Part shown: positions 6,701 to 45,700 of the stretch, one piece after another
Layout of the letters: every line of letters starts with the position of its first letter
How positions within the stretch are numbered: position 1 is the first letter of the stretch
Assembly (NCBI GenBank): GCA_947652605.1
Contig: OX393579.1
Coordinates: 49,172,970-49,236,969, forward strand
Source: Elmis aenea
Taxonomy: Eukaryota; Arthropoda; Insecta; Coleoptera; Elmidae
Direction: 5' to 3'
DNA: 64,000 bases
Translations under genes and position numbers: made by a program
The notes under the pieces: model-generated
Databases searched by the model: none
Told to the model about the DNA's origin: nothing
The model's input: only the letters and a program-made list of their open reading frames with translations

Positions 6701-9700
6701 AAATTTTGTTAATATTGTTTAAATCCAAAAATTACTATACAGTTTGGCCAAGTTTGGACCATATTTTGAATGATTTAAAAAATCTTTATCCATAAAACCT
6801 GGGCATTAGTAAATATATCTAGGGAAAAATACCATTGGAACGAGAAAATTGCCTTCTGGATTTGTCTTTATACCAGTGTTTCTCAACCTTTTTGAACTTG
6901 CACCCACTTCTCCGCATTGATTTCGATCCTTTATAGCAGTGACTACAAAAAAAGACCTTCCAAGTGTTTTGAAAAATCCATCCAGTTTGTCCCTTTCATT
7001 TCTTTGCGTACCCCTTCAAATATTTGGCGTGCCCCACAGGTTAAGAACCACTGCTTTTTGCCAAATTATATGCTGTAATCCTTTTTAAATTATACAAATA
7101 TCTCAATTTGTCAACCCTAAGATGCACATATTTTGGCAATTTTTAAGAGACGGCAACCATGGCATCTTGGTAGATCAAGTGCACTTCAGATGTGTTCTTT
7201 TGTTTTTTTAGGAGTAACGGCACCATTTTTGTTTTTTTTTTAATGGAACCATACATATTTTTTTATACGGTTTAAAAGACATTTTCTTTCTCTTTTCAAC
7301 GCACTAAAACTTTTATACCCTTACATCACAAAATTTTTAAGAAAATCGCAAAAGAAAAATTTAGTTTTAAAAGCGTACGGTATTAATTAATTTACACTAG
7401 TAGGCTTTGAAAATGGTTAAAAATGTAATACAGTAGTTTTGTGTTTACCGTTGTAACCTAATTAACTTTTTTTTCAATCTTTTACTATTTCGTATCATTT
7501 TCAAAGCCTACTAATGTAAAATAATTAATACCGTACGCTTTTAAAACCAAATTGTTCTTTGGCGATTTTCTTAAAAATTTTGTTATGTAAGGGTATAAAA
7601 GTTTAAGTGCGTTGAAAAGAGAAAGAAAATGTCTTTCAAACCGTATTAAAAAATATGTATGGTGCCATTTAAAAAAAAACAAATATGGTGCCGTTACCCC
7701 TAAAAAAACAAAAGAATCAAAAATTTGACATGACAATATTTTGGGAAATACTGTATCAAACAACATTTATTTAAAACTTTTTTTGATAATTCTTTCCAAT
7801 AACAAAATAAGTGGGGGTGTCGTAAGTGCTGCCTCACCCTGTATGAATGCCAGGATCACAAATACCATTTCTTTTCTTTGAAAAAAAGCTTAAACTGACC
7901 GTCATTCATTTGGTCAGTAATGGAGGGTCATAAAGGTTGGTTTAAGCTTTTTTTTTTAATAAGTATGAAAATTAAAGTAATATGTTATTTTCATTGAAAA
8001 AAAAAGTCTTTCACCAACCTTTAACCTGATTCTTAGTTGATTATTGTGAACCTAGCACTCATAATCGACAGTGAAATATCCTAGGTACACTTTATACATT
8101 GGGGTTACCGCCTCTTGTTGAAGACTGCCCATATTTTGATGTTTTTATAGTGTTCTGTGGTTTATGATCCCTGTAATAGGTATACATCTTCAAATGATAA
8201 TTAATGTTCACATCATTCTAATTTATTAATAGTACCTACTATAAATAATGGCACATCTTCCAGTCAGTAATGTTTTAGAATCAATGAAATACATCAGTTA
8301 ATTGGAAGTTTTATATTATTTTAAATAAAATTAAGATTGTAATGTAGTAATGAATGTTGACATACGTTTTTTCTTTTATAAGTATATCTATAAATTGAGT
8401 TGTCAAAAAGTCATGCAACTTAATTTTAATTAAAAAGACATTTTACATGATTTGTTGTGGGGGAAGAGACCGTTTTTATTTTTAATTGCATTGTGCAGAT
8501 TTTAGATAACGGATTATTACAACCTGTTACCGTAGTTCCTAAAATAGAATATCAGCTACAGTACGGTGGAAGTGTTAATTCGAAGAGCGAATTAGCTGCC
8601 CAGTGGGCGTCCTTATTTTTCAAACCATTTTCTTCATTATACAGAGGTAAATATTAATCCGCTTCAAAATTCATGTTGTATTTTAGGATATAATTAGCAA
8701 TTTTAAAGCAATAATTATGTGTAATTTTTTTAAAAATTTGTTAAAATTACCGCTTAGAAATAACGGACTTTATTTTATATCAGCTCGAATTAATCGTCTC
8801 TCCTCCGAAGTAGTCATGATGGAAAACTGCAACTTAGCAAAAATTAACAATGAAGCCAAAGTTCTACATGATATGAAGCCATCGTTTGGTTTGAACGTCC
8901 TCAACGCAGTTTTTAGTGAACTTACCAAACTCACACCTGGGAATTATTTACTTCATCACAGACTAACACATGGACCCTTCATAGCGCTCCTTAAAGAAAC
9001 GGATACCAAGTAATTACACTTTTATTATTATTAAAACCTCCAAAAATGTGTATATTTTTAAAATGTGGCACAGGACTCTTGTCGTTTGTCTAAAACTTCT
9101 ATAGCTGTTTGGTATTTTTTCCAGGATTTTTAAACATTTAGGATTCAATTGCGTAATTTTGATTATAAATTCATAATTTTTCTTAAATATTCACAACACT
9201 TGTAATATTAATAAAACAAACATATTTTTTAAATCTTATAAAGATTTGTTTTGTTAGTATAAAATGGTTGCATTCACTTGTTTATATACAGAGTGTTTTA
9301 TTCGAGTTTAAACAGGGGTACATGTATCTCGCTTATTATAATAGCCAGAATGTAGGTTTAAATTTGGCAAAGTTGCTAAATTCGGTGATCATTAATAATC
9401 CGAAGAGAAATTCGAAATATCTCAAACGGTATCCGAGAAAATTAAGAAAACCCGGAGAACACGATTTTTGAAAATTGTCTTTAACATCCTTGGAGCAGAG
9501 ATGGGCAATGCTTGAATGCTTACTACTTGCAATAATTTTTTAAGCACTTTTAATGCTTCGAGCACAATGCTTGGAGCACTTTCTAAAACAGATGCTCGAT
9601 GCTTAAGCACCAAGCACTTTCTTGAACACTTGGTACTTATTAAGCACTTTAGAAAGACAGTGCTTAATAAGCATTTTTTAAATTTATATATGCTTACTGC

Positions 9701-12700
9701 ATAGTATTTAATCCTTAACATGTATGCTACAAGACTGTTTAAATTTTAAATTTCTCTTAAGCATTTCCAAAATGCTCAATGCTTGCTGCTTAATTTTTTT
9801 AAGCACTTGGGTCAGTGCTTGATGCTTTCAAGCATTTTTAAAAACCAAAGTACTTACTGCTTAATTAGATCAAGCACTTACACAAGTGCTTGAATGCTCG
9901 GTGCTTCAAGCACTTTGGGTCGGTGCTTTGCCCAGCTCTGCCTTGGAGTATAAAATATTTCAAATGAGTAAAAACATTACCCAAGCAACTTTTTAAGCCG
10001 AATTGGATGGTTATCACAAACTTTTTCTAGGTTGCTTTGTTTTTCATTTGATTATGTAAATAGCAAAATTGAGCCTATAAGAAAAAATAAAGTTGGTTGT
10101 AAAACATAAACGAATCAACCTAAGATAAATTAGTGATTACCATCTGATTCTGCTTAAAAAAGTTGCTTAGGCAATGTTTTTACACATTTGGAATATTTTA
10201 TACTCCAAAGGAATTATGGAGGATTTTCAAAAATCGTGTTTTCCGATTTTTCCTAATTTTTTCGGATACCGTTTGTGATATTTCCGATTTTTTTTTGGAT
10301 TATTAATAAGCACCGAATTTAGCAACTTTTCCATATTCAACCAATGCTGTAGCTATTATAATAAGCGAGATTCCCATGTTAAACCCGAATTTCAAACACC
10401 CAGTATAACAGTTGGCTTGACATCATTTGAAAACTTTGTTTTTTTTACTTTTCAATAATATATGTAATTTAACTTGAAGCTTAAAATGATTAAAAGGATG
10501 ATAAAAATTATAGATATCACCAACTAATCAATATAAAAATCAGCGGTTCTCAAGTTTCTACAGGTCAAACATAATAATATGTCTATTTATCTACGTCCCA
10601 CTTCTTACGAGGAAGTCTATAAAACCATAATGTCACTTAAAAACACAAAATCAACAGGAGAAGATGAAATCCCAACAAACCTCTTAAAATATACTGCCGA
10701 CTTAATATCTGGACCTCTGTCACATTATAAATCTCTCATTAAAAAATGGCATATTTCCTAACAAACTTAAATGTGCAAAAATCAAACCAATTCACAAAAA
10801 AGGGGATTTAAGTGACATAGGAAACTATAGACCCATAGCCATCCTCACAAACATTAGTAAGATATTTGAAAAAATAATCTACAACCGAATTGAAAATTAC
10901 GTAGAACACTTTGGCTTAATAAACAACTCTCAAAATGGATTCAGAAAAGGCAAAACAACTACCCGCGCTATTTATATGGCAATCCGAAATGTACTTCAAT
11001 CCCTCAATAAAGACAAACACACCATGGTCATGTGTGTTGATCTCTCAAAAGCTTTCGATAGTGTTGACCACGAGATACTGCTAACAAAATTAGAACACTA
11101 TGGTATACGAGGGACCGCCCATAACCTTATAAAATCTTATCTTTCGGAAAGAAACCAATATGTTGCCGGAAAAGACTCGTCAGGTAAAATTCTAAAATCA
11201 AACAAAAAGACAATCAAAAAAGGAGTCCCGCAAGGATCAATCTTAGGCCCCCTGTTATACATACTGTACACAAATGATCTTCCAGTTTTTGCCAAAACTT
11301 CCCTTATACAATTTGCCGATGACACATCTGCTATTATTAGTGACTCGGATTCAAAAAATTCTGAACAAAAACTCTTTGACTGCTTAGGCCAACTCCAACT
11401 TTGGTTCACATTAAACAATCTAACCTTAAATGTCAATAAAACTCAAGTAATAAAGTTTTCACAAAGTAAATTAACCTCCGACCTAAAACTTAAAAACAAT
11501 TCCACAACTATAAATGTTGTTAATAAAATATCATTTCTTGGTTTAGGTATTGACTCTAGACTGGACTGGTCATACCACATCGAACGCCTGTCACAAAGCC
11601 TGTCACGGTATCCTTTCGCACTAAAAAACCTAAAAAAATTAGTCAGTACAAACGCGGCCAAAACTGCATATCATGCGTATGTTGAATCTAGGTTACGTTA
11701 TGCTATAATTTTTTGGGGTAACGCTAGTGACTCTGCACGCCTCTTTATTATACAAAAGCGATGTATAAGAACTATTTTTGGTCTAAACTACCGAGATCAT
11801 TGTAAAGACACTTTTCGTGACAAAGAAATATTAACTTTTTACGGCCTATTCATTCTCGAAGCCATCCTTTTCGTAAGAAATAATTTTGATCTGTTTGAAG
11901 TGAATATAAGAAACCATGCAGCCAATACACGACATAAAAAAAATCTTAAGCCCGATTGCTTCAAATATACTTATCTTCAAAAAAATGTTGCCTCTATAAT
12001 TATTGCAATATATAACAAATTTAATACATCACCTGAGAGTATAAAAAATCTACGCACTCCTGACTTGAAGAAAAGATTAAGAAATGTCCTAATTTCTAAA
12101 GCTTACTATGGAGTTAGTGAATACCTTAATGACGATTACTTTAAAAACTCCTTTAAGTAATTATAATTGTGTTGTATATATTCGTATATATGTGTATTTT
12201 TTATATCATTACTGTGACATGTTCTACGCCTTTTTGGATTTTTCAGAACAAATAAAGACTACTACTACTACTACTACACCTTTACAGTTTTAAAAATGAA
12301 TGAGAACTTCAGACCACTTTCGTTTATTTGGGATAAACAACATCAAGTTTAATGTAAAAATAGTCCTGGTTTCATAGACTCTCTGAAAGGCTCTCAGGGA
12401 CCTCCAACCCACACTTTTGAGGAGCACTGATACAAACAAATGAATCTAGTTATTTTATACTGCCTAAAAATAACTCTTAACTTATTCGGGGCCTAGGGCT
12501 TATTGAAGTCCAATGGAGCCCCATTTTTTGTTTGATTAAGAATATGTAAATTGGGGTTTAAAATTCATTTTTAGTAACATCAATATTGGAGTTGAAATAA
12601 ATTTATTTATGAAATGGCGTTGAATTATTTTACGTTGATTGAAATAAAACAAATAATACTATAAATTATTATCATTATTAATATTAACTATTTTTTACTG

Positions 12701-13500
12701 TATGATAAATGCTCGTTGTTAATGAAAATGTATTAAAAATGTATGATTTAATTTTTGTGGGCCCTTGACACTTGGGGGCCCAGTGCTTAAGCCCTATTAG
12801 TCCCTATGTAGATCCGCTTCTGTTCCCTAAAATTTTTTTTTATAAGCATTTATAACAAATTTATTAAATTGAATTATTGGCAATATCTAAAATGTCATAA
12901 AAACCATTTACTTGTTTTAAAACAAATATCAAATCGAATTTTTTTGAGAATGTACACATCCTCTATAATCAAAAAATAATAATTTGGGACCATTTAAAGA
13001 TCAGGAACCCAGGTACTAGAGACTTTTTCAAAGGGTCTTTAGACAATAATTTAAGGAAATATTGCTTGTTGCTATCAAAATGTTTATTTTTAGATCCAGT
13101 GACACGTACGACTTACATTTAACATACAAAGGCTATAACACATTCAAATGTTCCCATGTTCATATACCATGGAATCCAATCGATCCCACTTTAATATTAG
13201 AGATGCACAACCTGTATCGCAGGATGCCTGGAATGTTCCTGCCTTCTGCAAATCCAGTCACAAAGAATAAAAGTAAGGTTCTTTACTCATTTTAATATTT
13301 TTGGACAATTATCAAAAGCAGTCCTATTTATGTAGCTTGGTAAAGACATTCGTTTCAAGTCGGCTATATTTAGATGACTTTCACCGACTTGTCATAATTA
13401 AAGAAACCATTCTGTTTCAGATGCCAAGAAAAGAAACAAACATAAAGCACGAAAGGCTAAAAAGAAATGTATGTCATCGGCTCAGGAATCTCAAACGTAA
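3724..13500 (+). CDS. Ice2: Little elongation complex subunit 2 (NARG2 family)
   Basis: Eleven coding exons join in frame to 690 residues: 3724-3749, 4013-4343, 4399-4653, 4921-5182, 5241-5376, 6197-6471, 6525-6679, 8499-8646, 8784-9009, 13094-13272, 13421-13500. The recognisable part is the C-terminal NARG2 domain from exon 8 on: YQLQYGG, AAQWASLFFKPFSSLYRARI, VVMMENCNLAK, LTPGNYLLHHR and, after the 4.1-kb intron 9, DTYDLHLTYKGYN. Exon 6 codes for a lysine-rich stretch (KPRKKKGKKKKKK), probably a nuclear localisation signal, and the last exon is also basic. In the family, ICE2 works with ICE1 and ELL in the complex that promotes RNA polymerase II transcription of snRNA genes. The first exon is tiny (8 codons plus 2 bases) and inferred from a GTAAG donor and the frame. 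Introns 5, 7 and 9 carry transposons. A polyadenylation signal AATAAA follows at 13534-13539. Confidence 0.9.
5408..5606. mobile_element. short non-autonomous hAT-like element
   Basis: 199-bp element in Ice2 intron 5. Terminal inverted repeats begin CAGGGCCGGC and end GCCGGCCCTG; an exact 8-bp target duplication AATACTTA sits at 5400-5407 and 5607-5614. The 8-bp duplication and CAGGG terminus fit hAT. No coding capacity. Confidence 0.9.
5906..6109. mobile_element. TA-flanked MITE (Tc1/mariner type)
   Basis: About 204 bp in Ice2 intron 5, flanked by TA on both sides. The 24-bp terminal inverted repeats (5906-5929 and 6086-6109) start GAGGTCTTTCAAGATAAACT and match perfectly in reverse complement. 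TA target duplication plus perfect terminal repeats suggest mobilisation by a Tc1/mariner transposase. No open frame inside. Confidence 0.88.
6874..7053. mobile_element. short hAT-like element
   Basis: Ends CAGTGTTTCTCAACC and GGTTAAGAACCACTG form near-perfect terminal repeats of the widespread hAT type. Flanking octamers CTTTATAC and CTTTTTGC match at 6 of 8 positions, so this is an old insertion in Ice2 intron 7. Confidence 0.75.
7193..7843. repeat. palindromic element, CCCTGTA-end family (5' end eroded)
   Basis: Long inverted repeat centred near 7435 in Ice2 intron 7. The left arm (AGGAGTAACGGCACCA...) is mirrored by TGGTGCCGTTACCCCTAA on the right, with arms of about 240 bp. The right end closes with CACCCTGTA, the terminus shared by the other palindromic elements here; the left terminus is not preserved. 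Confidence 0.7.
9287..10405. repeat. palindromic element interrupted by a hAT insertion
   Basis: Left end TACAGAGTGTTTTATTCGAG and right end AAACACCCAGTA mirror each other. Inner arms also match: GTATCTCGCTTATTATAATAGC on the left against its reverse complement near 10350, and GCAACTTTTTAAGC against its mirror near 10155. It lies in Ice2 intron 9 and is split by the hAT element at 9496-9940. Confidence 0.75.
9496..9940. mobile_element. hAT-like element built of AGCACTT/AAGTGCT motifs
   Basis: 445 bp flanked by an exact 8-bp duplication CCTTGGAG (9488-9495 and 9941-9948). Terminal repeats CAGAGATGGGCAA and TTGCCCAGCTCTG. The interior is almost wholly made of dispersed TGCTTGA, TTAAGCACTT and GTGCTT motifs in both orientations. 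No coding capacity. Confidence 0.88.
10565..12293 (+). mobile_element. 5'-truncated LINE (non-LTR retrotransposon) with reverse transcriptase
   Basis: Reverse transcriptase in two reading frames in Ice2 intron 9. 10579-10722 reads SYEEVYKTIMSLKNTKSTGEDEIP; the remainder, to 12160, reads FPNKLKCAKIKPIHKKGD, GNYRPIAIL, the VDLSKAFDSVDH block, GVPQGSILGPLLYILYTNDL and the catalytic FADDT. A one-base loss near 10720-10724 separates the frames. No endonuclease domain precedes it, so the copy is 5'-truncated as LINEs often are. The 3' end is an ACT-repeat tail after AATAAAG (about 12250-12280), a feature of non-LTR elements with microsatellite tails. The block pattern suggests the Jockey/I group. 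Not intact because of truncation and frameshift. Confidence 0.88.
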
Positions 13501-36071: not shown

Positions 36072-36278
36072 TTCCACGGAGTATATTTAAAAATATGGAC
36101 CTTAAAGAGTTTTATAATTAGAATTTTAAATTCTTATACATATTTCAAAAACTTCATATTTTTATTTAATTTATGTTGTTTACTAACTGTACGGTATTGC
36201 CAACATTAACAGTTTATCGAAGAATTGTAAGTACTTTTTAACAAGTTTCCAAATTTCTCAAAGAAGATAATTGTATTG

Positions 36279-37382
36279 TACAGGGTGTTTTTTAAATATT
36301 GTGAAAAATTTCAGGAAGTAAATCCTTATTGAAAATTAAGGTGGCTTTTATGTAATTTTTTTCCTCAGACATCTCCTTTCTGGAGTTACACTCCCCTAAA
36401 GTGGAGCGGTAAAATTAGGTTTTTATTTTATTTCTCAAATTTGGATATATGTAGGAGAATGATATTTGGTAGATGTTTTGTATTTATTAAAAGGTATTTT
36501 TAATTATCTCCCACCTTCACAAGGGATTGAAAAGTGTAACCCCTTAAAAGCAGGGCTGTGGAGTTGGAGTCGGAGTTTAGGAGAAATTTCTGGTCAGTGG
36601 AGTCGGAGTCGGAAAAAATGTACCGACTTCGAGTACAACAAAAAATTGCGAGGTGGTCCTTTGCCGCAAAATTTAAGCTCAATTTTTAAATAATTTTTTT
36701 GTTTATTTTTTTTTCCTGTATTACACACCATAAAATGAATTAGTCTTAGTATTTAATTTGGTCGGAGTCGGAGTCGGAGTCGGACCACTAAAATTATCAG
36801 GAGTCGGAGTCGACTTTTTTTTTCCGACTCCGCAGCCCTGCTTAAAAGTCACCTCTTAAAAGGTCAATTCTATCCAATATGAATATAAACATACCATGGT
36901 AACCACTAACCACCAAAATGAATTGTTTTGCTCTAGAATATTTAATGGTTCATGATTACTCATTTTTGTTTTTACTCAAAAACTAGGTTTTGCAAGAAAA
37001 ATTAAAGAATAAAAAAGGTTTTTTAATAAATTAAACTTAAAAATGTAACTTGCAAAATTTTAACCCTTCAAAAAGTTCCTATTAAAAAACCAACAGGGGT
37101 CACACTTTTCAGCCCCTTGTTAAAGTGGGAGATGATTGAAAATATTACTATGGGAAACCTTTTAATAAGTATAAAACATCCATATATCATACTCCTATAT
37201 TTATCCAAATTTGAGAAATAAATTAAAAACCTAATTTTACCGCTCCCCTCTAAGGGGGCGTAACTCCAGAAAGGTGCAATTTAAAAGGAAAAAAAAAAGA
37301 TTGAAAAATAAATTTTTGTAATAAACACCAAAATTATCTCTCTTAAAAGAAAGAAGAGAACTCTTACTAAAACCCCTTGTAT
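36279..37382. repeat. palindromic element (TACAGGGTGTTTTTTAAATA family) split by a hAT element
   Basis: Left arm TACAGGGTGTTTTTTAAATA, TCAGGAAGTAAATCC and TAAAGTGGAGCGGTAAAATT is mirrored by AATTTTACCGCTCCCCTCTA near 37240 and a decayed terminus CCCCTTGTATA. Same family as 62327-63310, which is better preserved. The hAT element at 36551-36840 inserted into its left arm. Its right end lies about 90 bp before the ALDH-nucleotidyltransferase start. Confidence 0.8.
36551..36840. mobile_element. hAT-like element rich in GGAGTC repeats
   Basis: 290 bp flanked by the exact octamer CTTAAAAG (36543-36550 and 36841-36848). Ends CAGGGCTGTGGAGTTGGAGT and GACTCCGCAGCCCTG; subterminal GGAGTC units are arrayed in both arms. 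Confidence 0.92.
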
Positions 37383-37469
37383 ATTAAGACTTATTGTTAT
37401 TGCTAAAAAACAATCAAATATAAAAAATAAATTCACTAAATGTGTTTTTTGTAGAATAATAGTAATCCC

Positions 37470-39431
37470 ATGGCAATGGCATCAATTAATTTTGGGATTG
37501 TCAAAAGGCGTTGTGAAATTATTATTGCGTTGATCCAAGAAACAAAAGAAGAATTAATAAACATTCTCATGTCCTATCAACCGTATCATGTATGCTGCTA
37601 TGAAATTGAACGATGTGTGCGGACACTACACAATATTGATGATAACAAACAATATTTCGAAGAAATGATAGCCTGTGTGTCAATATTTTTACCTTCGAAT
37701 CTTCCTCTATATTCTTTTGTTTTATTTGCATTGATTCCGAGTTTCCTGAGTTGCGAAGTGTTCGTTTATCCAAATCAAATTTTACAAAAACAAGAAACTG
37801 TGGATAAGTTATGTGATATTTTGCTGATAAAAAAATACGTCCAAAATATAAAAATAGTTTCTGAGACACATGATACATTCATAGAAAAATACGTGAAAAA
37901 ATCTCAGTTGGTGATTTTCACTGGTCGAAATGAAACAAAAGACGTAATAAAAAAAGCCATGAAAAATGATTCTGTATTGATTTATAACGGGTCTGGCCAT
38001 AACCCGATAGTAGTAAGCAACGATGCTGATATAACAAAATCAGTCGAAGACAGCGTGTACGTTAAATTTTTTAACAGTGGACAGGACTGTGGCGGTCCGG
38101 ACGTTATCTTAGTGCACAAAGATATTTCCGAATCATTTATAAAACAATTTAAAGAACGTTGTTCGCAGCTTAAGGTTGGCAACCTGAGCGACAAAGAAGT
38201 CTTCATTGGCCCTATACAACGACAAACCGAACTCGAACGTTTAAAAGAAATAATCGACAACAATAAATTAAACATAATCCATGGTGGCCATATCGATTTT
38301 CGAAAAAAACTTGTATATCCGACAATTATTTTTTCAAAAATGACTGAATCCGTAAATTTTAAAGAAATTTTCGGGCCCATAGTATTCATTGTTGAATATG
38401 AAACAGACGAGCATCTACGGTTGTACTTTCAGGATGAATCCGGTAAATACCAAAGCAACAAAATGTACGTTTCTTTATATGGAAACAGTCGTTACATCAA
38501 GGAAAGGGATGACCGTATCCGCATCGCATTGAACAGAAGCACCAGAGGTGGAGTAGGAATCGTTTTGTTCAACGAAACTATCCACGACGTAGAAATCGGA
38601 ACTAAACCCTACGGTGGGTACAGCAAAGGAGCTTCCAGCGTTATAATAAAACGTAACGAAACCACCTCAAGTGTCGCATTTCCCATACTTATATCCGAAA
38701 TAATAACAGAACTTTTGATCAAGAATAATTCCACTAGAAACTTGCAAACGAAAAATGTCAACATTTTAAAAACGATTCCTGAATCAAAAAGTGCTTTTGT
38801 TTTAAAAATTGAAATGGACTTTAAAGAACATGTGACAAAAATATTTGGAAATAACTTGGAATTTGCTTTTATTTTTGGTAGTATAGCCCAGGGAACATAC
38901 AAGCTTAAAACAAGTGATATCGACACATTCATTTGTCTTAAACAAGAAGAAGACCCTAAAAAATTGAATGAGTACCAAAAATGGATCATTAATTATCAGC
39001 TGTACATAGATTTAAATCCTGATTTTAATTTTCCTTGTGAAATTGTTACTTACAGTCATTTAAAAAGGTTTATTATGAACTTGGATGATATCACAATTAA
39101 TTTTTACTGCAATGATTTTGAAATTTTTGATAAAATATTTTGGGCTTGTACGCTTCCCTCTTTTCACAAAAAGCAAGCTTTTGTTGGTGGTGTTGAAGGT
39201 GGAAAAAAATTAAGTTATTTAGCAAAAACCTGTAGTGCTTATCCAAAAAAGTGGGCCAAAGAATTTATTGATTTGGTGCAAAATGTTAATACTCTGCCAA
39301 TATCTTTGCAAGGATGTTATCAAGGTTTTGACAAGGATCAGGTGGTCGAAGCCTTATGTAAGCTGTATAAAAAACACGAATACTGTGAAATAATGCGATT
39401 GATTGATTTTTCCAAAACTAAAATGTTTTAA
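37470..39431 (+). CDS. aldehyde dehydrogenase-like / nucleotidyltransferase fusion protein
   Basis: An uninterrupted 653-codon frame. Residues ~1-410 follow the aldehyde dehydrogenase superfamily order: FLPSNLPLYSF (73-83), FTGRNETKDVI (150-160), NGSGHNP (173-179), FFNSGQDCGG (200-209) with presumed catalytic Cys207, LVYPTIIF (281-288), KEIFGPIVFIV (298-308) and KPYGGYSKG (379-387). The usual general-base Glu of the ELGG motif aligns with Asn173, and the cofactor Lys expected after the first motif is not seen (VYPNQ). Residues ~445-560 hold a polymerase-beta-type nucleotidyltransferase: FIFGSIAQGTYKLKTSDIDTF, with GS at 470-471 and Asp483/Asp485 as metal ligands. The last ~90 residues are probably helical. 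I know no insect gene with this arrangement; substrate and pathway are unknown. A T-rich tract ending GTAG at 37451-37454 may be an acceptor for a 5' noncoding exon. AATAAA follows at 39768-39773. Confidence 0.85.
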   Translation: MAMASINFGIVKRRCEIIIALIQETKEELINILMSYQPYHVCCYEIERCVRTLHNIDDNKQYFEEMIACVSIFLPSNLPLYSFVLFALIPSFLSCEVFVYPNQILQKQETVDKLCDILLIKKYVQNIKIVSETHDTFIEKYVKKSQLVIFTGRNETKDVIKKAMKNDSVLIYNGSGHNPIVVSNDADITKSVEDSVYVKFFNSGQDCGGPDVILVHKDISESFIKQFKERCSQLKVGNLSDKEVFIGPIQRQTELERLKEIIDNNKLNIIHGGHIDFRKKLVYPTIIFSKMTESVNFKEIFGPIVFIVEYETDEHLRLYFQDESGKYQSNKMYVSLYGNSRYIKERDDRIRIALNRSTRGGVGIVLFNETIHDVEIGTKPYGGYSKGASSVIIKRNETTSSVAFPILISEIITELLIKNNSTRNLQTKNVNILKTIPESKSAFVLKIEMDFKEHVTKIFGNNLEFAFIFGSIAQGTYKLKTSDIDTFICLKQEEDPKKLNEYQKWIINYQLYIDLNPDFNFPCEIVTYSHLKRFIMNLDDITINFYCNDFEIFDKIFWACTLPSFHKKQAFVGGVEGGKKLSYLAKTCSAYPKKWAKEFIDLVQNVNTLPISLQGCYQGFDKDQVVEALCKLYKKHEYCEIMRLIDFSKTKMF

Positions 39432-39979
39432 TTTTTGGTTTTAATAATTTATAGAGCGAATATAAATACTTTTTTGCAAATACTACCCATATATTTTATT
39501 ACTATATTAAAAATATGCAATATATGGCACATTTGAGGTATAAGGAACTTTGTTATATTAATATTATTGTGACATTACATAGAATCTTATTACGCTTTAT
39601 TTGATCTAAGCTTTTTTTAAACAAAACAAAAGTTTTCTCAATGTTAACTGACCATTAGGTAATGATAACGATTTAACGATGCTACCTTATGTAAAAGTTA
39701 TTAAAATAAGTGATATCAATTTATATAACATGAAAGAAAAGTATTGTTTGAAGATGTATAATTGTTCAATAAATTGTTTTAGTTAGATATATACCATATT
39801 CAATTTTTCATTGTTAGTAATTATAAAATATGTTCTTAAAACTTTTTATAATTTCTAAGCCCAACGCCTTACTAAAGTTCCGCCACTGTACTCATAAAAT
39901 TTGAGGTTATGGTTTCTTGACGTTTATTTTGTCTGAAGCTTATCTACATCTACATAAATATAAAACCTGAAATACAAAC

Positions 39980-40465
39980 ATGCTTTCGTCTATGGTTAAA
40001 GAACATCAAGCCAAACAAGTTGTTAGAAAAGAAATACAAGGTAAATCTTGGTTTTGATCGAAATCAAAATAAGTTAATATTAACACATTTTCAGAAAACA
40101 AACGAAAAGAGGCTATAACAGCTGCGAGTGACTTAACACAAGCCCTAGTGGACCATTTAAATGTTGGGTATGTGTTTTACTAGCACAAAATTGCTCAAAA
40201 ATATTATAATTTAACTTTCAGAGTTGCTCAAGCATACTTGAATCAAAAACGATTAGATGCTGAAGCGAAACAACTATATGCTAGCTCTGCAAATTTTTCT
40301 AAGCAAACTCAACAGTGGTTATCTTTAGTGGAATCGTTCAGTAGTGCCCTTAAGGAACTAGGAGATGTCGAAAATTGGGCGAAAACCATAGAAGGAGACG
40401 TACGGACGATTACCATAGCTTTAGAAAATGTATATAAAAATTCGCAAGATGCGCAGACTCAATAG
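39980..40465 (+). CDS. Blos1: BLOC-1 subunit 1 (BLOS1/GCN5L1)
   Basis: Three exons 39980-40040, 40095-40167 and 40222-40465 with 54-bp introns give 125 residues, the usual size. It reads MLSSMVKEHQAKQ, EAITAASDLTQALVDHLNVG, VAQAYLNQKRLDAEAKQL, FSKQTQQWLSLVESF, LKELGDVENWAKTIE and TIALENVY, all characteristic of BLOC1S1, a mainly coiled-coil protein. It is a shared subunit of BLOC-1 and BORC, acting in biogenesis of lysosome-related organelles and lysosome positioning; a role in protein acetylation has also been described for the family. AATAAA lies at 40537-40542. Confidence 0.96.
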
Positions 40466-42741: not shown

Positions 42742-45700
42742 ATGCCAGGTCCACCACCTCCTCCCCCTGCGGCACCACCTTCGATGATGCCGCCGCCACC
42801 CCCAGCATTTAATTTATCTTCATCGAAAGGGGGTGGACACGATCATGGAGCACTATTAAAATCGATACAACAAGGAGCGAGGCTTAAAAAAGCTGTGACC
42901 AACGATAGAAGTGCTCCAATAGTTGGTAAGTACATTCGTTTCCACATTATTACACGCAAACGTATTGTTTGTAAACCATTTTATTGATTAATTCGTGTGT
43001 AAATCAAGCCTCTTATATTTGAAAGTTTGGTTATGCACCTGTCAATGTCAAATCAAGCAATATTGGTCAAGTTTTTATTTAAATGTGCAAGCTGTTTTTT
43101 TTCGGTTGTGGTTAGGATTGTTTCATTTAATAAATTATTGTTTGTGACACCTTTATTTATTTTAGGTAAAGTCAATAATTCCAGTAGTAATTCCAATTCA
43201 CTTGGTAGTGGTAAATCGTCAAATTCTTCACCTATGCCATCGGCAGCACCAAATGGATTAGGTGGTTTGTTCGCAGGTGGTATGCCAAAGTTGCGTTCAA
43301 CAGGCAAATTAGGTAAGTGGAATGTATAATTATTAATGTTTTGGGTATAGGTGCTGGTGTAATTTTAAAACTATGAATCTTGTTGAGTGTTTTATTTCTA
43401 TTGGAATAAAGAAAATCCTGCTTATACAGGGTGTCTCAGCCAAGAAGAATTATTCGATAGCTCTCGTATATTACATTTTTAAACCAATAAAAATACAGCT
43501 TAAAGATGAAAATAGAATAATTGTATTCGGTTTATAAAACAAATTTTTGAGATTTTTCCAGAGCCTACTAGTTTAATTCTATTGAGTATTTTGTTTTTGC
43601 CCTAAAATAATCGTGAAAACCAAAGAATTGTTAGTTTTAGACATAATATACCAATATTACTCTTTAAAGATAATGAAATTATCCATAAGAAAATGCTTAA
43701 ATATATAGGGTTTTCTATTTAAAAAAAAGTTACTTATTTGTGTTTGAAGTGAAGTCAAATGGACCGGGCATAAGAAACACCCTGTATATTATTTTAAAAT
43801 TATAACAAGCCAGCAATCACTATGACACTGTTGTCAGGTTTCTGTCAATATTTTCCATAGATAAAAATATTTTCATAGAAATTTAAATAACTCAAAAAAT
43901 ATTAACTTAAGGTACAAAACACCTTCTACATTTTTGAAAGGTATTTTAATTTAGCATCATAAATTTACAAAATATACAGGGTGTTCTATTTAAAAAAACA
44001 AAGTTACATATCGGTGCTCAAAAACAAAACACTTTGTATAGTCGAAAGTTGTTTTAGGTTATGTAGTAAATCACTCAAAACAACTTTTATTTAAAAATTT
44101 TAGTAGTAATAGATCTTTTGAATAATTCGTTTTGGCTGTATATATTTATTTGGTGACATAAAGTTACAAAACACTTACAATTATCTACTACATATATGTT
44201 TTTTAAGAGATAAATTTATTTGCATTCAATTAATTTTTATGTAATTTCCAACGTTGCTAACTAGAAATTAGGTAATACTTTTTGTATAAGGTAATTTAAA
44301 TATAAACAAATAAGTATCTACTTAAATTGTTTTAAAATGCGGATTTGTGGTTCCACAGTTAAATAAATCATTTGTATTTTTATTCTTATTAATTACTTAA
44401 GACAATCTTCATCTTATTTTTGTTATGTTTCACCCTTAAAAGCCCTGAGCGTCGATACATCAGAATGTGCGATTGTGCATGTATTAGTTTTAAAGGTATA
44501 AATATAGTGCAAGCCAATAGTTTTTCAAAAATGTTGATGTGTTATTGTTTATCACAATATTTGACTTCTTTATAATTTTTATTATCTGGCAGCCTTATTC
44601 GTAATTATCTGCGGGGCAAACGTATTCATGTAGTCATATTTTTACAGGTGGAGTCCCAACCAATGAAAGCAATACTAGTAGTAATAGTAATAATACATAT
44701 ATGAGCAATTCGAGACCTCCAGGTACGCATCAACCACAAAAAAATTTCGGGACTGTTCAAAGCGAAGTTCAGACAGCATTAAAAAAGCAATTGGCAAGTG
44801 ATAGTAATAGACAAAGAGGACCACCGCCCCCGGCCCCTGTCAGGAATAATATCGGAGTGAGTAATTTACAAATTCATGAACAAACGAATGTAGATTTTAT
44901 TCAACCCCGGGTATTGTATTCTAAACAATGGAATACTATGGGCTGTTCACAACTAACTGGTAGCTATGCGTGGCCCTCATAGTCCCATGTAATACTGGTT
45001 TCTTGCTATGCGTAAATTTCTATGCACCCAATAGACACAAATGTCATTTACAGTTAAGGGTGTCGTTAAAGCGTTCCGGCAGCGACTAATACATTTATTA
45101 GTCCATAGTTGACACAGGTGCATAAACCAGTTCATGAATTAATATAAGACGTCTGCTGAAACAAACCTATTGGTAGATATCAAGATGTTTGAGAAAATTG
45201 CATTTTTTTGGCACCTTATGTTTACATTAATGTTAACCGGTACCCAAAAGTCGTTAACCGGCACCCAAAAGTCGTTAACCGGTACCCAAAAGCCGTTAAC
45301 CGGTACCCAAAAGCCGTTAACCGGTACCCAAAAGCCGTTAACCGGTACCCATAAGTCGTTAGCCGGCACTCAAAAGTCGTCAACCGGTACCCAAAAGTCG
45401 TCAACCGGTACCCAAAAGTCGTTAACCGGTACCCAAAAGTCTGTATGGCCCACTACTAAACAGGACTGGGCTAGGTTTCAAAACGTATACAATAATCTAT
45501 TACAAAACTTATCAGTCCAGGGGATTTCTGCTATTATTTATAGATTAGTATATCTTACGTCCAGATAATGAGTTTGTGTATTGGATTTGACGCAATATTT
45601 TTAATACTATTTCTAGTAATTGTTTAAATAACATGAACTGTCCATGTTTATAAAAAAAATAAGGAGCTTCCTGTGTCTAGACGTATGGGGTATTTTTTGT

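Follow-up and report, generated by a model that had tools for sequence, protein, structure and literature searches.

How does a gene that joins an aldehyde dehydrogenase (ALDH)-like domain to a nucleotidyltransferase (NTase) domain in one unbroken frame come to lie in the genome of the beetle Elmis aenea, and what might it do there? The gene occupies positions 37470..39431 (+) of a 64,000-nucleotide stretch of contig OX393579.1 (C4:49172970-49236969, here called the window), in an assembly of 516 Mb and 302 contigs. It is an integrated nuclear beetle gene, present as a single full copy. Our reading, to which as a whole we give a probability of about 0.35, is that it derives from a Candidatus Mesenet-type symbiont, has been under purifying selection, and would combine a LuxC-like ALDH acting on activated basic amino acids with an AadA/MNT-like adenylyltransferase.

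The frame runs for 653 codons and encodes a 653-aa protein (P0001); its stop-to-stop run is 658 codons, against a longest run of 159 over 20 mononucleotide shuffles of the window. Pfam matched P0001 to Aldedh (PF00171; 6e-32, residues 143-315, above the curated cut-off), NTP_transf_2 (PF01909; 1.2e-6, residues 464-534, 29.2 bits against a cut-off of 21), and Polbeta (PF18765; 2.4e-6, residues 455-531, 28.1 bits against 26.9). AlphaFold2 models had a mean pLDDT (predicted local distance difference test) of 93.2 for the entire protein and 93.4 for the NTase part modelled separately. The modelled ALDH fold extends beyond the Pfam-matched stretch to cover approximately residues 1-421 (37470..38732, +), and is followed by a nucleotidyltransferase with a helical lobe (approximately residues 441-650; 38790..39419, +). 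Pfam and predicted structure thus agree with a sequence-only reading of the window, which had described a 653-codon frame with an ALDH-like and then an NTase domain; the motif it had singled out, FGSIAQGT...SDID, lies at residues 469-485. The protein has neither a signal-peptide-like start nor ankyrin repeats, and the encoded bifunctional enzyme is probably located in the cytosol.

The closest relatives of the protein are bacterial. A protein search returned 111 matches and a profile search 100, of which only about a quarter bear names. The five best matches are full length (54-56% identity over 99%), have an identical domain order, and are from Mesenet of Agriotes lineatus, Mesenet longicola, Mesenet of Phosphuga atrata, a "Wolbachia endosymbiont of Xenopsylla cheopis", and one nameless record. 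No insect-named relative occurs among the 111 and 100 matches, about three quarters of which are nameless; for a neighbouring gene, by comparison, beetle proteins with names, e.g., from Ignelater luminosus, were retrieved from this database. In trees, the window gene stands beside P0007 and the Mesenet clade, with support of 100/99 in a tree of 35 chosen rows and 99 in a tree of 86 rows (in which P0087 is the sole entry from P0086-P0219). P0007, second closest in the tree, is a nameless record that may be of bacterial or insect source. The Xenopsylla record (P0006) nests inside Mesenet, away from the Wolbachia rows P0020 and P0042, which may reflect recent exchange or a mislabelled assembly. 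Trees of each domain, proposed in the sequence-only reading, were built with 25 rows and agree on the placement (support of 93 for the ALDH part and 98 for the NTase part).

We conclude from these phylogenies that the gene was very probably transferred from a Mesenet-like alphaproteobacterial symbiont, and a Mesenet-type donor group is strongly supported. The fusion itself is bacterial and predates the transfer, because Mesenet has the same domain order and the window gene groups with Mesenet. Acquisition from a bacterium, raised by the sequence-only reading, is thus upheld, and its alternative of a retrocopy is not needed; its statement that no standard metazoan protein joins these domains stands in that no insect-named protein was found, but the fusion is bacterial and DPANN-archaeal rather than insect-made. 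Phage and plasmid origins were rejected. Two scans of viral contigs contained no relative, and none of 51 matching phage records covered 80% of the query (the 20 listed have 23-27% identity over 39-56%); likewise, none of 2352 matching plasmid records covered 80% (the 20 listed have 21-27% identity over 53-65%). Five records labelled Panagrolaimus (P0048, P0076, P0087, P0217, and P0218) belong to the same family. Three of them (P0048, P0076, and P0087) fall in a different clade from the window gene, and in P0048 and P0076 the NTase motif is gone; animals may thus have captured the family a second time.

The ALDH part retains its catalytic Cys but departs from ordinary ALDHs at the general-base position. 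Cys207 (codon at 38088, +; motif NxGQxC) aligns with the catalytic Cys of three host ALDHs, and Asn77 (+, within the ALDH fold) and Glu299 (codon at 38364, +) are kept as well. Asn173 (codon at 37986, +) replaces the general-base Glu (ELGG) present in all three host ALDHs, so the residue expected of a hydrolytic ALDH is missing. The same pattern holds across the family, in which Cys207, Asn77, and Glu299 are retained, the general-base Glu is Asn, and a subfamily motif of the NG-x-GHNP type stands where ordinary ALDHs have one of the ELGGKSP type. Coenzyme A (CoA)-acylating ALDHs of the methylmalonate-semialdehyde type also have Asn at the general-base position.

The NTase part carries the pattern G...D-x-D...D...E, made up of Gly470 (codon at 38877), Asp483 (38916), Asp485 (38922), Asp518 (39021), and Glu524 (39039), all on the plus strand and invariant in 18 of 18 aligned rows. 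Model searches with the whole of P0001 were swamped by ALDHs, so the NTase part was modelled and searched alone, and families beyond those listed may match as well. Its best structural matches are the AadA and ANT(4'') adenylyltransferases and MntA, which share the two-lobed NTase fold. A defence system was rejected as an identity for the gene, as PADLOC matches were only NTase-type or generic (best PDC-S09, 3e-8, residues 446-510).

The genomic surroundings of prokaryotic relatives offer a clue to function. Scanning a species-genome collection with two peptide patterns gave 62 pattern matches and at least 49 confirmed loci. Several loci stop at contig ends, and at eight (L018, L021, L024, L025, L027, L028, L042, and L048) GC-rich frames or breaks seem to have distorted the gene calls, so the family counts are approximate, and they refer to these loci alone; the representatives used to scan the locus frames were taken from these very loci and proteins, which builds in self-matches. 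Pfam assigned tRNA-synt_1f and Aldedh to the Xenorhabdus representative and identified full arginyl-tRNA synthetase (ArgRS), major facilitator superfamily (MFS), GNAT, aminotransferase, and NTase representatives; the P-loop representatives had weak AAA_18 or AAA matches. An NTase occurs at 17 of the 49 loci, as a fused ALDH-NTase at five (L001-L005), as a fused NTase-ALDH at two (the DPANN archaea L019 and L035), and as a separate nearby frame at ten, among which those of L006 and L015 may be broken fusions. Fusion in both orders, together with proximity at other loci, is good evidence that the two domains work jointly. Class I lysyl-tRNA synthetase (LysRS-I) sequence is found at 25 loci (in eight only as a C-terminal piece of 83-135 residues) and ArgRS at nine, eight of which also carry the NTase; a short LysRS match within the ArgRS of L047 was excluded from the count. 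One or other synthetase is thus present at 34 of 49 loci. ArgRS is usually encoded by one gene per genome, and we infer that meeting it nine times in 49 stretches, none longer than 23 kb, would be far above chance. The family-wide link suggests that activated amino acids are used in a way not yet described.

Further genes recur at these loci. An MFS gene is present at 13 of 49 and a P-loop kinase-like gene at six, these six all being among the 17 with an NTase; in L003 (Wolbachia of Tyrophagus), related P-loop kinase-like genes flank the ALDH-NTase gene on both sides (9267-9857 and 12058-12729). Seven loci (L016, L017, L022, L030, L036, L037, and L041) encode one protein in which a class I LysRS-like half is fused with an ALDH half, have an MFS gene next in line, and are candidates for an undescribed small-molecule pathway. 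In the clade with Legionella and Holosporales rows, several relatives have a hydrophobic, signal-peptide-like start (judged by eye) or carry ankyrin repeats, and some may therefore act outside the bacterial cell. The ankyrin repeats are N-terminal in P0013, P0018, P0035 (labelled Holosporales), and P0040.

Substitution patterns suggest that the gene has been maintained. The window protein keeps all 43 columns that do not vary among 54 other relatives and on which five Mesenet-clade rows agree, compared with 104 of 196 columns where conservation is below 50% (the test omits P0007, P0047, and P0048, and its outgroup omits P0020 and P0042). Differences from Mesenet longicola amount to 0.32, 0.23, and 0.56 at the three codon positions and to 0.62 at 100 fourfold sites. 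Neutral simulation of the Mesenet gene at 0.3 changes per site, which approximates the observed protein identity, produced at least 20 stops in eight of eight runs (eight runs per setting, one starting gene). These patterns support purifying selection over all of the divergence since the common ancestor. The share of it exerted within the beetle is inferred from a shift in GC content at third codon positions (GC3), which is 0.32 in the window gene; two beetle exons have values of 0.34 and 0.32, and nine Mesenet frames range over 0.18-0.25. The gene is probably functional in the beetle.

For the chemistry itself we make a tentative proposal by analogy. LuxE feeds an activated acyl group to the LuxC acyl reductase, and the linkage of this ALDH subfamily to class I synthetases similarly suggests an activated aminoacyl substrate. 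Cys207 would take the aminoacyl group, from an aminoacyl-adenylate or aminoacyl-tRNA, as a thioester; the group would be supplied by a LysRS-I- or ArgRS-like partner in bacteria and perhaps by the host's own synthetase in the beetle. The ALDH part would then either hand the group on or, using NAD(P)H, reduce the thioester to give an amino aldehyde, and the AadA/MNT-like part would adenylylate the product or a carrier. The sequence-only reading had envisaged activation of a small molecule with a nucleotide together with oxidation, reduction, or acyl transfer, which stays plausible and is sharpened here by the synthetase association.

Several observations count against this interpretation. Neither synthetase is found at 15 of 49 loci, including L001, L002, and L003; among the five closest relatives, genomic context is known for L001 alone, and having no synthetase neighbour it makes the amino-acid substrate an extrapolation. 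Two features that the three host ALDHs have near the NAD site, a Lys in the KPSE-type motif and the second Gly after FTGS, are changed, so that reduction is possible rather than assured. The support of 93 for the ALDH-only tree is under the 95 mark, and three of the 30 columns with at least 95% but not full conservation are changed (27 kept). Finally, relatives outside Mesenet reach a GC3 of 0.28 (Legionella) and 0.30 (KLAP47), which weakens the residence-time argument, because the GC3 of the donor may have exceeded that of Mesenet.

It may also be, and we hold this to be as probable as our own reading, that a gene of the same origin and domestication performs another task, as an ordinary aldehyde or acyl-CoA enzyme (detoxifying or CoA-acylating) with a domain that AMPylates itself or another protein. 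The ALDH fold is standard, with methylmalonate-semialdehyde dehydrogenases (1t90 and 4zz7) among its structural matches; the Mesenet longicola gene has no synthetase beside it; and the NTase fold resembles the MntA antitoxin, with AMPylated partners among the listed entries. However, such a task accounts poorly for the repeated linkage of the subfamily to class I synthetase sequence at 34 of 49 loci and for a conserved motif of the NG-x-GHNP type where ordinary ALDHs have the ELGGKSP type.

A recent insert from an unsampled symbiont, intact because it is young and without function in the beetle, would be compatible with the single open frame, with the existence of relatives with a GC3 of 0.28-0.30, and with a branch length built up in the bacterium. 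We consider it unlikely, as the GC3 of the gene equals that of beetle exons and the gene is adjoined by a dispersed assembly repeat, with no adjoining symbiont DNA found. Less likely still is the most far-reaching version of our own proposal, an undescribed and widely scattered prokaryotic pathway in which a class I synthetase-like protein activates Lys or Arg, the ALDH forms an amino aldehyde or transfers the group, and the NTase caps it with a nucleotide. Intracellular bacteria would direct the product or enzyme at their hosts, and the beetle, having domesticated one enzyme, would make the product itself with its own charged tRNAs.

The chromosomal setting bears on contamination, which the sequence-only reading had named as a threat to its idea. 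Directly upstream lies a palindromic repeat (36270..37420) with similar stretches on C1-C9 and C293 and at least 149 matches in the assembly (40 scored of 7606 candidates). Downstream, the host gene Blos1 (BLOC1S1; GCN5L1 PF06320, 1.5e-41) starts 549 bases past the stop of the captured gene, and its 5' part (39980..40400, +), judged by eye, comprises three exons; two short introns lie within the first 420 bases. A 16,467-base stretch around the Mesenet longicola copy (L001) matched the assembly only within the gene, and six-frame pieces of the window, on either strand, match the 49 fetched loci only inside the gene span, so a larger symbiont insert was rejected. A P-loop kinase query, run without a positive control, had no match in the beetle assembly. 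Mesenet symbionts have been named from beetles (Agriotes and Phosphuga), but the long contig, the flanking repeat and beetle genes, the identity of only about 55% to known Mesenet, and the lack of any other symbiont match make contamination or a chimeric assembly very improbable. We regard as equally far-fetched a widespread, vertically inherited insect gene, which would be expected to lie intact between host sequences as this one does, given that it nests inside bacteria in the trees and that no insect-named match was found, although the database named beetle proteins for the neighbour.

Introns were part of the original case for transfer. The neighbouring Blos1 does have them, but their absence from the gene itself is a weak argument that we dropped as proof. 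Besides the one full-length match, the assembly holds nine matches at 25-31% identity; the seven fetched (L051-L057) are ordinary host ALDHs, likewise in single open frames, of 505-571 codons. Six of these (L052-L057; C7, approximately 28.73-28.84 Mb and 3.55 Mb) are clustered single-frame genes, including some near-identical copies on opposite strands.

Other features of the window are more peripheral. A moderately pyrimidine-rich stretch ending in AG (37441-37454), 15 bases 5' of the ATG, is a possible acceptor of a 5' untranslated-region intron, and the first AATAAA past the stop (39768..39773, +) is a possible poly(A) signal. The palindromic repeat contains a short hAT-like element (36543..36848, element 36551-36840) with ends CAGGGCTG/CAGCCCTG, flanked on both sides by the 8-base duplication CTTAAAAG. 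A neighbouring exon of a serine hydrolase matches best, at 58%, a database protein of the click beetle Ignelater luminosus, which by itself would suggest an elateroid host. The window also contains a frame with a recurring TGTQK(S/P)L motif (45170-45568) and a frame resembling the reverse transcriptase (RVT_1) of a long interspersed nuclear element (10976-12160).

An intact and apparently constrained two-domain enzyme is the rarer case and is directly testable. Beyond the beetle, class I synthetase-like sequence is linked with this altered ALDH and the NTase across Pseudomonadota, Actinomycetota, Patescibacteria, and DPANN archaea, and the Panagrolaimus records in another clade suggest that the family may have been captured by animals a second time.

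The review PMC9437257 covers synthetase paralogues including the LysRS-MprF fusion LysX, and "dehydrogenase" is absent from its main text. The accessible literature, including PMC6191289 and PMC3296651, held no description of a synthetase-ALDH or Wolbachia ALDH-NTase protein, and that on transfer into beetles or Panagrolaimus none of this gene, with subscription journals thinly covered in both; leupeptin-type peptide aldehydes were followed as a lead, and no paper joining the terms was found.

Comparison with known proteins places the window gene more closely. AadA, ANT(4''), and MntA have 10-18% identity to the NTase part in the matched rows and are not fused to an ALDH. LuxC, a Cys enzyme with the ALDH fold, takes up an activated acyl group and reduces it, and its substrates differ from those proposed here; P0001 scored 11.8 bits with the LuxC profile (PF05893), below the cut-off of 21, and its relative L036 scored 29.2 bits. 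With the methylmalonate-semialdehyde-type CoA-acylating ALDHs, the protein shares Asn at the Glu position. The LysRS-I-ALDH and MFS loci of Xenorhabdus and Pseudomonas have the ALDH subfamily motifs NG-x-G(H/I)NP and GQDC in common with the window protein but, unlike the window gene, no NTase was found there, and the groups with ALDH, NTase, and ArgRS (Magnetobacterium, Micavibrio, and DPANN archaea) encode the same ALDH subfamily with the synthetase fused or near. The Panagrolaimus proteins are animal-labelled members of the same family. The nearest counterparts are the Mesenet proteins P0002, P0004, and P0005 (25-28 residues longer than the window protein) and P0006 (five residues longer), which fall in the same clade with the same domain order and motifs; theirs are bacterial genes without an assigned function, whereas the window copy is a beetle gene.
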